DNA of 64,000 nucleotides from Flavobacteriales bacterium (GTDB taxonomy: Bacteria; Bacteroidota; Bacteroidia; Flavobacteriales_D; Crocinitomicaceae), in the NCBI GenBank assembly GCA_013373595.1, contig JABXHO010000067.1, forward strand, positions 1 to 64,000. The letters are read 5' to 3'. Positions within the stretch are counted from its first letter, which is position 1. Each line of letters begins with the position of its first letter. The position numbers and the translations under genes are program-made. The notes beneath the pieces were generated by a model. That model was not told where the DNA came from, did not search any database, and saw only the letters and a list, made by a program, of their open reading frames with translations. Of this stretch, positions 41,360 through 47,794 are shown in pieces.

Positions 41360-43141
41360 TTACACTTTTTCTATTTGATGAATCTTAAACTCAACAGCCA
41401 AATTTCTCATATTTTTAACAAGTTCATGAAGCGAAAATTTTGCAATATTAGACTCAAAGTCTTCAATCTTGCTAATATTTCTAGGCCCTTTTGCAGTGTC
41501 TAGAACAGCCAATACAAAAACAATTTCTCTTTCCTTTATCGTATCGATAAATGCATTCTCTGACAAAGAGGAGAGTTGTTTTTTGGCCGTCTTATTATAA
41601 TTTGATTTCCCCTTATTGTTCTTAACCAATTGGTACAACCTCCTCAAATAAACGTATCCTGTTTTATCATCCTCCTTAACCTTCCGAGCCGCAACATAAA
41701 CCTGATGAGACAAATCTCTCATTGAGTTGTCAAAGCCAGCCTTCACGTGAATGAAATATACATTATTCGAATCCCAGTGCATTAAATCACATGCCTCGAT
41801 ATTATCAGGTGTAAACTTATCAAATACAAGAAAATCTGGTTCCGAAATATGTTTTGCATTGAAATAGTTCTCAATTTCTCCTGGATACTTCCATTTTAAA
41901 ATCTTTCCACTATACTTATTCATATCAATGAAGGACTGACATTGATCGTTAAATTTTTCAATAAAACTTGGCTTAATCTCGAACCATTCCGAGTCCGACA
42001 AAAAGTAATTCTTACCGTTATACTTAACCTCAGTGTAATAATGATTTTTAAGTAAATCAGTTGTCTCTATGTCACCGCTATTCGTTTGGCTCGTAATACG
42101 AGCATTCTTGATAAGTGAAAGTAATTTATCATCCGCTAAATTTGAATTAAAGTCTTTAATGCTTTTAATAACGCTTATTATACTCTGAATTGGTTCATCA
42201 AACGGAATTAATTTTTTCTCACCATCAATCTTGTAATTAAGCACAAAATTATCTGCGTGTAAGTACTTATCGAAATCTTTATGACATAATTCTATACTTG
42301 TAGGGTTTTGGCGGCCACTATAATAGTCAACAACAGCATTATCCAATTCTTTATTTAAATTCTCTATCAGAATTTTATTCGTTTTATTCAACTTGACGAC
42401 ACCGTTGATTTCTACAATTGGTGTAACCGTGTCTATCAAATTCTCACACTTAAGTATTATGTTCAATAATTGATCAAATGAGATAGATTTCTTTATTGTG
42501 AACGAATTTTTCGCAACACACAAACATGATGAGTCTATTTCCTTTGGTGAAAAACCGAAAACTTGAGTCAATAATCTCTTGTTTAAAGAGGAATGTAATT
42601 CCTGATAAAAATTCCCGAAGTTTTCATTCTCATGAAGATTATAATTATTTCTAAAAAACTTCACCTCTCCTAAAATGCCCCCAGTCAGATTCTTCTCCTT
42701 AGTGGATCTGAGTGTTTTGTCTTCCGCTTTAACAATTCTAGATAGAATTTCTAATCCGTAATCCCCCTCAACAACCCCTTGTAATGCTGTATGTCCGAAC
42801 CCACCCGTACAAGCATAAATTTTACCAGTTCTCCTTCTGGTCAGCAACATAATGTAACTTTCATTAATGGTGCTAGTATATTGTAAAATTGGTTCATTAG
42901 TATCAGCGACTTTCTTTAGAAAATCTTTCCATTTTATAGGCGACTGCTTTCGTTTGAAGTAGAGGTTTATATCAAACTCATTTGATATGTTATTCTGCAC
43001 TTTTTGCTCAGAGTAACCTTTCTTTTTGAAGGATTTAGTCAAATAAGGCACATCGACAATAACATCATTCACTTTAGATTTGAGAATCTCCGAAAGCTCA
43101 CTTTTCAGGGAGTAAATTGCAACTTGGAGTTTATCCGACAT
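41360..43141 (-). CDS. TIGR04141/DUF6119 sporadic family protein, nuclease-like
   Basis: A 593-residue protein matching the pattern of the sporadically distributed TIGR04141 (DUF6119) family: GKIYACTGGFGH at residues 106-117, then GDYGLEILSRIV and the LRSTKEKNLTGG segment. Late in the protein, ACDLMH (around 450) and FIHVKAG (463-469), then RDLSHQVYVAA, form a D...(H)xK arrangement that recalls PD-(D/E)xK nucleases with His in place of the Glu. The family often turns up singly in variable genome regions and defence-island-like settings; its function is not established. The gene is distinctly AT-rich compared with its neighbours and sits alone between non-coding gaps, suggesting acquisition by transfer. 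Confidence 0.7.
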   Translation of the reverse strand: MSDKLQVAIYSLKSELSEILKSKVNDVIVDVPYLTKSFKKKGYSEQKVQNNISNEFDINLYFKRKQSPIKWKDFLKKVADTNEPILQYTSTINESYIMLLTRRRTGKIYACTGGFGHTALQGVVEGDYGLEILSRIVKAEDKTLRSTKEKNLTGGILGEVKFFRNNYNLHENENFGNFYQELHSSLNKRLLTQVFGFSPKEIDSSCLCVAKNSFTIKKSISFDQLLNIILKCENLIDTVTPIVEINGVVKLNKTNKILIENLNKELDNAVVDYYSGRQNPTSIELCHKDFDKYLHADNFVLNYKIDGEKKLIPFDEPIQSIISVIKSIKDFNSNLADDKLLSLIKNARITSQTNSGDIETTDLLKNHYYTEVKYNGKNYFLSDSEWFEIKPSFIEKFNDQCQSFIDMNKYSGKILKWKYPGEIENYFNAKHISEPDFLVFDKFTPDNIEACDLMHWDSNNVYFIHVKAGFDNSMRDLSHQVYVAARKVKEDDKTGYVYLRRLYQLVKNNKGKSNYNKTAKKQLSSLSENAFIDTIKEREIVFVLAVLDTAKGPRNISKIEDFESNIAKFSLHELVKNMRNLAVEFKIHQIEKV

Positions 43142-44583: not shown

Positions 44584-45579
44584 ATGCACAATAAGATCAT
44601 AAAGGATATTGAAAGCGGAAGGTTTGAGAAAATCTACTTCCTCCACGGGGAAGAACCGTTGTTTATTGATATGATCACGGACGCCATTGTTGAACATGCG
44701 TTGGAAGAGCACGAGCGCGACTTCAACCAAACGATCATTTACGGAAAAGAAGCCGATCCACTGAGTTTGATTTCGGAAGCGAAAGGTTATCCAATGATGG
44801 CCGAACGTCGATTGGTTGTGTTGAAAGAAGCACAGGATTTCCGAGGAATGGAAGACCTTCTTCCCTACTTTGAAAGCCCGAACGATCAGACCATTTTGGT
44901 GATCAACCACAAGTACAAAAAGTACGATACGCGGAAGAAATCCATGAAAGCCGTTGCAAAAAACGGTTTGGTATTTAAATCGGAGAAGGTCAAGGAATAC
45001 AAGCTTCCCGATTGGATCAAAGATCACGTAATATCGCAAGGATATAGCATTACACCAAAAGCTTCTATGCTCTTGGCTGAATTCCTCGGAAACGACTTAA
45101 GTCGAATTGTAAATGAGATTGAAAAGCTCGAAATTTTGGTGGAGAAAGGAACCACCATCAACGAGATTCACATCGAAGAAAATATTGGAATTTCGAAAGA
45201 TTACAATGTGTTTGAGTTAATTAATGCTGTAGGTTCGCGCAACATCGAAAAAGCGAATCGTATTGTCGATTATTTTGATCACAATCCAAAGGCAACATCG
45301 ATCATTGTGGTGATCTCGAACTTGTTCAATCATTATTCACGTTTGATGCGTATTCACTTTTTGGAGAATAAATCCAGAGAGGCCATTGCAACAGCGATCA
45401 AAGTACATCCTTTTGTGGCAGGCGAGCTATTGAATTCTGCCAAAATCTACAAGCCGAAAAAGATTGCAGCAAATATTGCCGTGCTTCACGAATACGATTT
45501 GAAATCCAAGGGTGTGGGAAATACTTCCTTCACGCACGGACAGCTGATGAAAGAATTGATTTTCCGATTGATGCACTGA
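44584..45579 (+). CDS. holA: DNA polymerase III subunit delta
   Basis: A 331-residue clamp-loader subunit, normal length, with the N-terminal YFLHGEEPLFID motif, the middle AEFLGNDLSRIVNEIEKL helix typical of the AAA+ lid, and the C-terminal helical collar. It opens the beta clamp during replication. Encoded between pepT and rsmE without gaps; its stop overlaps the rsmE ATG (TGATG). Confidence 0.93.
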   Translation: MHNKIIKDIESGRFEKIYFLHGEEPLFIDMITDAIVEHALEEHERDFNQTIIYGKEADPLSLISEAKGYPMMAERRLVVLKEAQDFRGMEDLLPYFESPNDQTILVINHKYKKYDTRKKSMKAVAKNGLVFKSEKVKEYKLPDWIKDHVISQGYSITPKASMLLAEFLGNDLSRIVNEIEKLEILVEKGTTINEIHIEENIGISKDYNVFELINAVGSRNIEKANRIVDYFDHNPKATSIIVVISNLFNHYSRLMRIHFLENKSREAIATAIKVHPFVAGELLNSAKIYKPKKIAANIAVLHEYDLKSKGVGNTSFTHGQLMKELIFRLMH

Positions 45580-46289
45580 TGCGTTTATTTTATGATGCTC
45601 ATATCGAACTCGATGCTGCGACGCACCAACTCTCTGAAGAAGAGTCGAAGCATATCATACGTGTGTTGCGCATGCAGGAAGGCGATGAATTGGCTCTAAT
45701 CAATGGGAAAGGTGGCTATTTTGAAACGAAAATCTCCATTGCACATCCAAAACGTTGTCAGGTTGAGATCGTAAAGGCAGAACAAAGTGAACCGTTGAAA
45801 CATGATCTTCACATCGCGTTGGGGCCCACTAAAGTGATGGATCGCATTGAATGGTTTGTGGAGAAAGCCACGGAAATTGGCATCACTGAAATTTCATTCA
45901 TTGCTGGAAAAAATTCGGAGCGTGTGAAATTGAAATTGGATCGCATCGAAAAGAAAGTCATTTCGGCAATGAAGCAATCGAAGCGACGGTTCTTACCGAA
46001 GATCAATCCGCTTGTTTCCGTTTCAGATTTCATTCAACAACATCCGAACGGACTGATTGCGCATTGCGAAGACGGTGAGAAATTGACCATTCTCGATGCT
46101 TTCGAAACGACGAGTTGCCCTATTTTGATCGGTCCCGAAGGCGATTTTACGCTAGATGAAATCGAACTCGCATTGGAACATGGCTACACAACCATTTCCT
46201 TAGGGGAAAACCGTTTACGAACAGAAACGGCTGCCTTGTACGCCTGCGTCTGTGCTCAATTAAAGATTGATCTCAACAACTCAAAATAA
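45579..46289 (+). CDS. rsmE: 16S rRNA (uracil-1498-N3)-methyltransferase
   Basis: A 236-residue SPOUT methyltransferase. The N-terminal PUA-like part carries SKHIIRVLRM, and the knot region carries ALGPTKVMDRIEWFVEKATEIG, IGPEGDFT and LGENRLRTETA, all diagnostic for RsmE. It methylates U1498 in the decoding centre. Last gene of the pepT operon; the inverted-repeat array starts 32 bases downstream. Confidence 0.95.
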   Translation: MRLFYDAHIELDAATHQLSEEESKHIIRVLRMQEGDELALINGKGGYFETKISIAHPKRCQVEIVKAEQSEPLKHDLHIALGPTKVMDRIEWFVEKATEIGITEISFIAGKNSERVKLKLDRIEKKVISAMKQSKRRFLPKINPLVSVSDFIQQHPNGLIAHCEDGEKLTILDAFETTSCPILIGPEGDFTLDEIELALEHGYTTISLGENRLRTETAALYACVCAQLKIDLNNSK

Positions 46290-46317
46290 GTATCAATCGT
46301 TCTATTTCGTCCGCTTT

Positions 46318-46413
46318 TTAAACCACATAGGAACATAGGTTTTTCATTAAGTGTGGTTCAATAGCACTACCAATAAGCTCATAGGTCAGTTTGTCAAAAT
46401 ATTTTCTTGTCAT
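46318..46413 (-). pseudogene. GxxExxY gene remnant in element A
   Basis: A 31-codon stub whose first 19 residues (TRKYFDKLTYELIGSAIE after Met) match the start of the intact gene at 46497-46904 at most positions; the frame then runs directly into the terminal repeat and stops. The catalytic part and the GxxExxY motif are gone, so it cannot act as a nuclease. Confidence 0.7.
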
Positions 46414-46437
46414 AATGGTCTATGTATCTATGTGGTT
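46321..46437. mobile_element. Inverted-repeat element A (deletion derivative)
   Basis: A 117-bp block bounded by AACCACATAGGAACATAG (46321-46338) and CTATGTATCTATGTGGTT (46420-46437), inverted repeats that match at 16 of 18 positions. Inside is only the beginning of a GxxExxY-type gene on the minus strand. The last 47 bases plus flank are identical to element C, so both derive from the same shortened copy. A 21-bp AT-rich spacer separates it from element B. No transposase is present, so how it moves, if it does, is unknown. Confidence 0.65.
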
Positions 46438-46458
46438 AATTTAATTCGATCGTTTTTT

Positions 46459-46925
46459 AACCACATAGAAACATAGGGCTTCCAGACATCTCTGAGTTAA
46501 TTCAATTTTGAAAAATATTCATTGACGAATGTTTGTTGTCCTTCTTTAAAAATGTTGGAGCAGTTAAAATTAATCAAGATGCCCTTAGGGCATTTCAGCA
46601 GTTTCATATAAGTTAACAGCTGCGCCTCAAATACAGGAGTGATTTCCTGAACTGCTTTTAACTCCACCACAATTGAATTCTCTATGTACAAATCACACCT
46701 AAAATCAATATCCAGTAGCTTTCCTTTGTAATCCACTGGAATTTTCATCTCTGTTTGAAAATTTATTTTCCTATGTTTCAGTTCCTCCATTAAGCATTTG
46801 TGGTATACACTTTCGAGTAAGCCTCTCCCCATAACCTTGTGTACTTCGATGGCGCTACCAATAATCTCGTAGGTCAGTTCGTTAAGGTATTTCTTTGTAA
46901 TCATGCACTATGTATCTATGTGGTT
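46459..46925. mobile_element. Inverted-repeat element B carrying intact GxxExxY gene
   Basis: A 467-bp block bounded by AACCACATAGAAACATAG (46459-46476) and CTATGTATCTATGTGGTT (46908-46925). The right repeat ends three bases before the start codon of the gene inside, and the left repeat lies 21 bases beyond its stop, so the element is essentially one gene between inverted repeats. The repeats could act as DNA ends or as an RNA stem enclosing the gene. Confidence 0.65.
46497..46904 (-). CDS. GxxExxY protein, PD-(D/E)xK nuclease-like
   Basis: A 135-residue protein with the naming motif at residues 28-34 (GLLESVY) and a PD-(D/E)xK-like core: Asp70 in FRCDLYI and Glu80-Leu-Lys82 in VVELKAV. Members of TIGR04256 (Pfam PDDEXK_3) are of this length and often occur in several copies per genome; the biological role is unknown. 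Here the gene fills an inverted-repeat-bounded element and is flanked by two truncated copies. Start ATG at 46904. Confidence 0.85.
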   Translation of the reverse strand: MITKKYLNELTYEIIGSAIEVHKVMGRGLLESVYHKCLMEELKHRKINFQTEMKIPVDYKGKLLDIDFRCDLYIENSIVVELKAVQEITPVFEAQLLTYMKLLKCPKGILINFNCSNIFKEGQQTFVNEYFSKLN

Positions 46926-46941
46926 ATATTTTAATTTACTC

Positions 46942-47053
46942 ATTTTTTTTCACCACATAGGAACATAGGTTTTTTATTCAGTGTGATAGCCGCTTTGTAG
47001 TAACCACTTCCAAAAATCTCATAACCCAGTTCGTCAAAATATTTTCTTGTCAT
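46942..47053 (-). pseudogene. GxxExxY gene remnant in element C
   Basis: A stub of about 37 codons starting TRKYFDELGYEIFGSG after Met, homologous to the first ~17 residues of the intact gene, then unrelated sequence running through the terminal repeat to a stop. No catalytic residues remain. Confidence 0.6.
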
Positions 47054-47077
47054 AATGGTCTATGTATCTATGTGGTT
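46951..47077. mobile_element. Inverted-repeat element C (deletion derivative)
   Basis: A 127-bp block bounded by CACCACATAGGAACATAG (46951-46968) and CTATGTATCTATGTGGTT (47060-47077). Its internal part starts with the same CATAGGTTTTTxATTxAGTGTG junction as element A, then diverges, and ends with 47 bases identical to element A. It lies 25 bp of AT-rich DNA from element B. Confidence 0.65.
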
Positions 47078-47149
47078 AAACACGAAAGTTGAAACAATTC
47101 ACGTTCTAGTAAATTTAAAGTATCTTAGCTGAACAGATATTTTCATCGC

Positions 47150-47794
47150 ATGAGAACAGTTTTATTGGCTATTGTTTTATGGGGTTCATCACTTTGCTTC
47201 GGACAAAGTTACCAACTCGCGTTTTTGAAATACGGCGGTGGCGGCGATTACTACGCCAACCCAACTGCATTGACGAATCTCGCTTCTTTTTGTAATAAGA
47301 ACTTAGGAACATCGATCTCCAATGAAACACCTTATGTTGAAGTCGGAAGTCCTGATTTATTTCTCTATCCGTACATTCACATGACAGGACACGGAAACGT
47401 TGTGTTTTCGAGTCAGGAAGCGGAGAATTTGAGAACGTACCTCATCGGTGGAGGCTTCTTACACATCGACGACAACTTCGGAATGGACGAATTCATTCGT
47501 GTTGAACTGAAAAAGGTGTTCCCGAACAACGAATTGGTGGAAATTCCTTTCGATCATGCTATTTTCCATCAGAAATATGACTTCAACGGATTGCCAAAAA
47601 TCCATGAACACGCAGGAAAACGACCACAAGCTTTTGCCATTATTGTCGACGGACGAATTGTCTGTTTGTACACCTACGAAACGGATTTGAGTGACGGTTG
47701 GGAAGATCCTGAAGTACACAGCGACCCTGAAAACAAACGCCAGGAAGCACTCAAAATGGGCGCTAACATTTTAATGTACGTGTTTATGCAGTAG
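47150..47794 (+). CDS. DUF4159 family secreted protein
   Basis: A 214-residue protein with a signal peptide (about 1-18, ending CFGQ) and a DUF4159 domain (about 22-212) with LFLYPYIHMTGHGNVVFSS, the LIGGGFLHIDDNFG motif and the HPIF-like HAIFHQKYDF segment. The domain resembles glutamine-amidotransferase-like folds and is common in Bacteroidota; function unknown. TATCTTAG upstream is one base from the -7 consensus. Its end is 40 bases from the convergent esterase gene. Confidence 0.85.
   Translation: MRTVLLAIVLWGSSLCFGQSYQLAFLKYGGGGDYYANPTALTNLASFCNKNLGTSISNETPYVEVGSPDLFLYPYIHMTGHGNVVFSSQEAENLRTYLIGGGFLHIDDNFGMDEFIRVELKKVFPNNELVEIPFDHAIFHQKYDFNGLPKIHEHAGKRPQAFAIIVDGRIVCLYTYETDLSDGWEDPEVHSDPENKRQEALKMGANILMYVFMQ

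Follow-up and report, generated by a model that had tools for sequence, protein, structure and literature searches.

The locus analysed here lies in a 64,000-nucleotide stretch of Flavobacteriales DNA (the window, meaning the whole stretch that was analysed). It raises the question of what a GxxExxY nuclease-like gene is doing between inverted repeats that also bound two small gene-free blocks beside it, and whether its protein could be what moves such blocks. The answer favoured here, with moderate confidence and with the moving role of the nuclease inferred, is a REPIN/RAYT- or MITE-like system whose cognate enzyme is a PD-(D/E)XK nuclease that recognises the short repeated word from which the ends are built.

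Anatomy and probable gain of the array

The array lies between rsmE and a DUF4159 gene and comprises the following features.

45579-46289, plus strand: rsmE, left neighbour of the array
46290-47149, no strand: 860-bp insertion at the rsmE/DUF4159 junction, whose flanking genes are overlapping or almost adjoining in most relatives
46321-46437, no strand: block 1, 117 bp, gene-free derivative on the left, bounded by inverted ends 46321-46338 and 46420-46437
46345-46413, minus strand: start of the GxxExxY gene surviving in block 1, codons 2-24 (tblastn E 0.009, 61% identity)
46438-46458, no strand: spacer 1 (21 bp), resembling the left flank of block 1
46459-46925, no strand: middle block, full element, 467 bp, with inverted ends 46459-46476 and 46908-46925 and one gene between them
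46497-46904, minus strand: GxxExxY gene, 135 aa, predicted PD-(D/E)XK nuclease fold; D71, E81, K83; RecB-type H22, Q95, Y99
46926-46950, no strand: spacer 2 (25 bp), resembling the left flank of block 1, with which it shares a repeat family
46951-47077, no strand: block 3, 127 bp, gene-free derivative on the right, bounded by inverted ends 46951-46968 and 47060-47077
near 47003-47053, minus strand: gene start kept in block 3, read from the sequence
47150-47794, plus strand: DUF4159 gene, right neighbour of the array

The inverted ends of all three blocks are AACCACATAGNNACATAG, and the ACCACATAGNNACATAG pattern occurs in the window as six words without mismatch, where 0.84 (sd 1.1) would be expected even allowing three mismatches. 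The initial annotation had described three blocks with shared inverted ends, and this held, as did its block and spacer sizes; its figure of 16 matches in 18 between ends held for block 1 only, the middle block having 17/18 and block 3 having 15/18. The middle block does contain an intact GxxExxY gene, as had been claimed, with the ATG of this minus-strand reading frame 3 bp inward of the right end. Also as claimed, only the gene start survives in the outer blocks: about 25 codons are left, from a related gene copy, and both blocks are internal-deletion derivatives. Blocks 1 and 3, which the initial annotation had traced to one shortened, duplicated copy, have in common a long identical run at their right ends, spanning the gene start and the inverted end. 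Because both spacers look like the DNA just left of block 1, on repeat-family comparison and on direct reading, the array probably grew through tandem duplication of flank plus element, an account that is likelier than three separate insertions. A few genes upstream, the window also encodes a DUF6119 (PF19614) protein of 593 aa (41360-43141, minus strand).

In most relatives within the genus, the intergenic distance between rsmE and the DUF4159 gene is -1 to about 100 bp, with an ATGA overlap in L053, and the array is absent. Since the two genes lie this close together in most relatives, the array was most likely gained in the lineage of the window. The initial annotation had proposed examining both empty sites and target duplications; the empty sites favour mobility, while duplications could not be read at the window array, where relatives are too divergent, and were found at gene-free insertions in Flavobacterium (see below). 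In a related species (L062, G018:C110), the same junction holds an unrelated tandem repeat of CTCTGTG words, and the junction therefore seems permissive for such repeats.

Copies elsewhere in the genome

The genome that contains the window measures 4.69 Mb in 179 contigs. ACCACATAGNAACATAG occurs in it at 26 places with at most one mismatch, where by the authors' own estimate chance would give about 0.1 copies in 4.7 Mb. Most end copies are gene-free pairs of about 100-150 bp, often in tandem (contigs 65 and 54), and many are located at contig ends, as is expected because repeats break assembly. A single intact GxxExxY gene is present in the genome; a 226-bp version shortened by internal deletion lies on contig 25, and units with remnants of the gene are found on contigs 7 and 89. 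A search for the ends elsewhere in the genome had been suggested as a check on mobility, and these many sites, deletion derivatives included, favour it. Further, two features of MITEs are satisfied, namely short, dispersed, gene-free units with terminal inverted repeats (in this genome and in Flavobacterium) and internal deletion from a gene-bearing parent (the outer blocks and contigs 25, 7, and 89). The earlier description of an element with non-autonomous, MITE-like derivatives is thus supported; that the nuclease itself is the mover is inferred and not shown. A TTCG arm outside the words is found at 11 of 29 ends in this genome versus a background of 18%, and is not counted as a defined part of the element. 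Contigs 82, 96, 55, and 121 (L017, L021, L016, and L023) carry arrays that mix CACATAG words, CACAAAG-type words, and the palindrome CTTGACGNNGTCAAG, with no gene seen. Additionally, a RAYT-like Y1 transposase gene, flanked by repeats of its own (GCTGCGCAGGATTTGCAATCCTGCGC), is located at C162:10156-10392 (L232).

The GxxExxY protein

The window protein is a clear member of TIGR04256 (E=1.9e-41, 141 bits versus a curated cut-off of 35) and of PF13366, or PDDEXK_3 (E=1.5e-40, 138.6 bits versus a cut-off of 22), a family without a functional name. The motif that gives the family its name is present as G28-x-x-E31-x-x-Y34. Conserved positions in GxxExxY proteins are H22, D71, E81-x-K83, and Q95-xxx-Y99, which make up the RecB/Cas4 signature; across 74 sequences D71 and K83 are invariant and E81 is kept in at least 90%. 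The core residues named in the initial annotation were the right ones, numbered one too low (Asp70, Glu80, and Lys82 for D71, E81, and K83). A structure model (pLDDT 97) shows a PD-(D/E)XK fold, and its best structural match is the Cas4 protein SSO0001 (4ic1; Foldseek probability 1.00, Z 9.3). The model places GxxExxY with high confidence among Cas4/RecB-like PD-(D/E)XK nucleases, and its catalytic residues are intact; that it cuts DNA is inferred.

Intact copies are under purifying selection, with a median dN/dS of 0.12 over 43 pairs. Decayed gene copies have arisen independently, with stops at the Glu81 codon (L352, G348:C12), at residue 88 (L364, G357), and at residue 130 (L290, G603); in the first of these, the close GxxExxY copy of G348, it is the catalytic glutamate codon that has become a stop.

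Word-built ends as a general rule

GxxExxY genes were found in 149 of 296 Bacteroidota genomes, at 1-11 per genome, and also in Chloroflexota, Planctomycetota, Acidobacteriota, Verrucomicrobiota, Cyanobacteria, and others. Across 80 named loci from many phyla, inverted repeats (score of at least 12, within 350-400 bp of the gene) straddle the gene in 62 (78%), versus 19 of 302 control windows (6%) taken from the same loci. In the Bacteroidota set (46 loci) most genes are straddled, and control scores never exceed 11. The median element length is 509 bp, which leaves room for one gene only. The transposase gene that a DDE insertion sequence would have between its inverted ends is absent, the space being filled by the GxxExxY gene alone.

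The ends are built by repeating a single short word, of general form CRYNNAG and preceded by AACC, 2-4 times. The word is identical at both ends of an element and differs among elements; words include CACATAG, CACAGAG, CACGGAG, CGCAGAG, CGCAAAG, CACTAAG, CATTAAG, CATAAAAG, CGCCAAG, and CACAGATT. Between the two ends of an element, words agree at 94% of positions and the spacers between words at 65%, although it should be noted that both figures are biased upward by the word pattern and by the repeat finder. That words agree better than spacers suits protein-binding sites over paired RNA. The resemblance to protein-binding sites is inferred from the sequence.

Moreover, the word tracks the protein tree. 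On a maximum-likelihood tree of 127 proteins, 106 of them with an assigned word (up to 15 hand-read from the repeat alignment), word class requires 53 changes versus at least 69 in 300 shuffles and at least 66 when shuffling is confined to bins of host G+C content; with automatically assigned words only, 47 changes are required versus at least 59. The tree is poorly resolved, and simple co-travel of word and gene would also give co-inheritance. The nearest relatives of the window protein (62-78% identity) come from Pedobacter, Flavobacterium, Chitinophagales, Ignavibacteria, Cyclobacteriaceae, and Pyrinomonadaceae, and have CACATAG ends. The neighbouring genes differ among these relatives and DNA similarity stops at or within the ends, indicating that gene and ends travel as a unit.

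Mobility of word units in Flavobacterium

The CACATAG end occurs in 183 of 299 genomes of Flavobacterium (the genus of G217), with a maximum of 177 copies per genome, versus a handful at most per genome for a reversed control pattern. Many of these copies are homogeneous gene-free units of about 135 bp. All 58 genomes that encode a close GxxExxY gene (E at most 1e-55) contain words, at a median of 24.5 copies, versus 125 of the 241 other genomes, at a median of 1 (Fisher p=8e-15, a value that is optimistic because the genomes are related).

Lineage-specific insertions bounded by direct repeats were observed in three comparisons with known empty sites: AACAGTTAA in L345 versus L415 and L412, AAACAATAA in L349 versus L391 and L392, and ATATTGATTTA in L302 versus L356. 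These show target duplications of 9, 9, and 11 bp in Flavobacterium relatives. A limit on the mobility reading is that the inserted units reach 14-45 bp past the 18-bp word ends. Some units carry, in these additional arms, a further inverted repeat, CCRTTGGGTGTAAT (L293, L294, L296, and L302), which is possibly a separate mobile family, and other enzymes may therefore act on the outer ends.

Gene-bearing elements were found in occupied and empty states at four Flavobacterium sites and at a FecCD permease/ABC ATPase junction, and at these sites target duplications could not be read since the DNA between the genes has diverged too far or been replaced entirely. At the FecCD/ABC junction (L352, L362-L390), one clade carries a GxxExxY element with CACATAG ends, and its sister clade carries a hairpin of CACAGATT words or CTTAG words, the spacer being wholly replaced in genomes that are 98% alike. 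This replacement indicates that unrelated word families share permissive sites. Tandem arrangements also occur: G470:C161:5770-6283 holds a CACATAG array of about ten half-units with a period of 53-57 bp, and at G364:C1:2697050-2698272 (L311) tandem CACATAG units of about 80 bp flank a GxxExxY gene on both sides.

The assignment of these units to GxxExxY is weakest where genomes rich in units, or with recent ones, hold only a distant copy of the gene. G413 has recently gained a CACATAG unit, yet its GxxExxY gene is distant (E 4e-24), and no close gene accompanies the 77-128 word copies in G578, G599, and G612. The pattern would be explained if the gene had been lost once the units had spread, if the distant copy were active on them, or if a transposase acted on the outer arms. 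The close copy in G348, interrupted by a stop at its Glu81 codon, likewise speaks against the assignment.

A putative mechanism and its nearest known counterparts

Under the favoured reading, the middle block belongs to a family of single-gene elements that is widespread, each encoding a Cas4/RecB-like nuclease between word-built inverted ends. The nuclease would recognise its own repeated word at both ends, either as duplex DNA or as a hairpin formed by the end, would cut there, and would support copying or excision of the unit, which would then insert where the target had been cut with a stagger of about 9-11 bp. Copies reduced to their ends by internal deletion would be moved in trans, yielding MITE-like hairpins, and local arrays would later expand by tandem duplication of element and flank. 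Binding of the words, cutting of DNA, and movement of units by the protein are all inferred. PD-(D/E)XK nucleases are not known to join strands unaided.

By analogy, the closest known system in its logic is REPIN/RAYT, in which REP doublets are moved by a single-copy Y1 transposase (PMC3116915). In both, a conserved and mostly single-copy chromosomal gene that is rare on plasmids is flanked by a repeat that is also dispersed as inverted pairs, there is one repeat type per enzyme, and enzyme lineage and repeat go together. However, the enzyme here is a PD-(D/E)XK nuclease and not an HUH/Y1 transposase, so the defining RAYT feature is unmet; the ends are tandem words within long inverted repeats rather than tagged palindromes, and insertions of word units show target duplications of 9-11 bp. 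With MITEs and their autonomous insertion sequences, the system shares target duplications and short gene-free units that arise by internal deletion of a gene-bearing parent. It differs in that the sole parent gene is nuclease-like and no DDE or other transposase lies in the element; word units fit every feature of the MITE definition but a known transposase, none having been identified.

Among nucleases, the Rpn/YhgA-like proteins (PF04754) are small, multi-copy PD-(D/E)XK recombination-promoting enzymes linked to DNA movement, of which RpnA has little or no sequence specificity in vitro (PMC5350276). They resemble GxxExxY as PD-(D/E)XK nucleases tied to recombination but belong to a different Pfam family: in a Pfam scan of the window protein PF04754 was absent and PF13366 alone matched. 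Rpn/YhgA-like nucleases are not known to have terminal word repeats. The RecB nucleases of the Cas4 and lambda-exonuclease type share the D-ExK-QxxxY signature and, on the modelled fold, include the best structural match, but GxxExxY is shorter, stands alone, and sits in its own one-gene element.

In the open-access literature searched, the term GxxExxY appears in two papers, both in passing, and its link to inverted word ends is undescribed; six of the word sequences appear in no paper of the open literature searched, and open-licence work on MITEs, REPINs, and nuclease-linked inverted repeats yielded no description of the system. It may therefore be new, which remains uncertain because the search was limited to open-licence papers.

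GxxExxY is common and functionally unassigned, and its link to word ends and hairpins gives it a testable role and accounts for intergenic repeats that form a large class in Bacteroidota. Should the nuclease be the mover, prokaryotes would possess a mobile system driven by a type of enzyme that is not known to transpose on its own. A bolder reading, against which the balance tips slightly at present, is that these elements form a new mobile-element class across many prokaryotic phyla, with a minimal Cas4-like nuclease as the only element gene, which would read the word at both ends and mobilise both itself and gene-free hairpins, and whose specificity for words would have diversified many times. 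Were this so, many natural protein-word pairs would exist, and they would provide a natural data set on how nuclease DNA specificity changes.

Alternative explanations

The strongest rival, possible and ranked below the nuclease reading, is that the word-end units are MITEs of a conventional DDE transposase and that GxxExxY is cargo, or a settler, inside them. A DDE enzyme would fit the 9-11 bp target duplications and the inverted repeats lying outside the words, and the recent insertion in G413, which has no close GxxExxY gene, points the same way. Against this, no further gene fits between the ends of a median element, more than 100 elements across many phyla carry one and the same gene family with words that change with the protein, and the outer repeat is missing from the gene-bearing elements inspected (L105 and L312).

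It is unlikely that the words are instead operators for autoregulation of GxxExxY, with dispersed copies being regulatory or terminator-like hairpins that are not mobile as such. The gene does begin just inside the right end, and the dispersed hairpins are intergenic, often beside terminators, with different word families at the same sites. However, this view is opposed by the lineage-specific insertions with target duplications, by deletion derivatives that retain both ends, and by gene-free copies that number up to 177 per genome.

A role of the repeats as RNA stems around the gene, which the initial annotation had offered as its alternative, is very unlikely and found no support. The ends can pair, and when folded as single-stranded DNA, block 1 (z -3.2) and a contig-65 unit (z -4.2) are more stable than shuffles, but block 3 shows no such advantage (z -0.9), the two ends share their words but differ in the spacers between them, Rfam gave no match, and gene-free dispersed copies would be left unexplained. 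Last, a REP-style origin of the words from the tyrosine (Y1/RAYT) transposase of the genome, which does encode one Y1_Tnp gene, is all but excluded and was rejected, since the repeat that flanks that sole gene is a different one, GCTGCGCAGGATTTGCAATCCT, with no CACATAG word beside it.

Plasmids and phages were also considered as carriers and rejected, since the gene is rare or absent there: GxxExxY was found in 8 of 72,556 plasmids, in 0 of 50,697 phages, and at one locus among viral contigs. Such rarity is as expected of a chromosomal RAYT-like gene. The best plasmid match lies beside radA and a TonB receptor gene, in a record that resembles a piece of chromosome.
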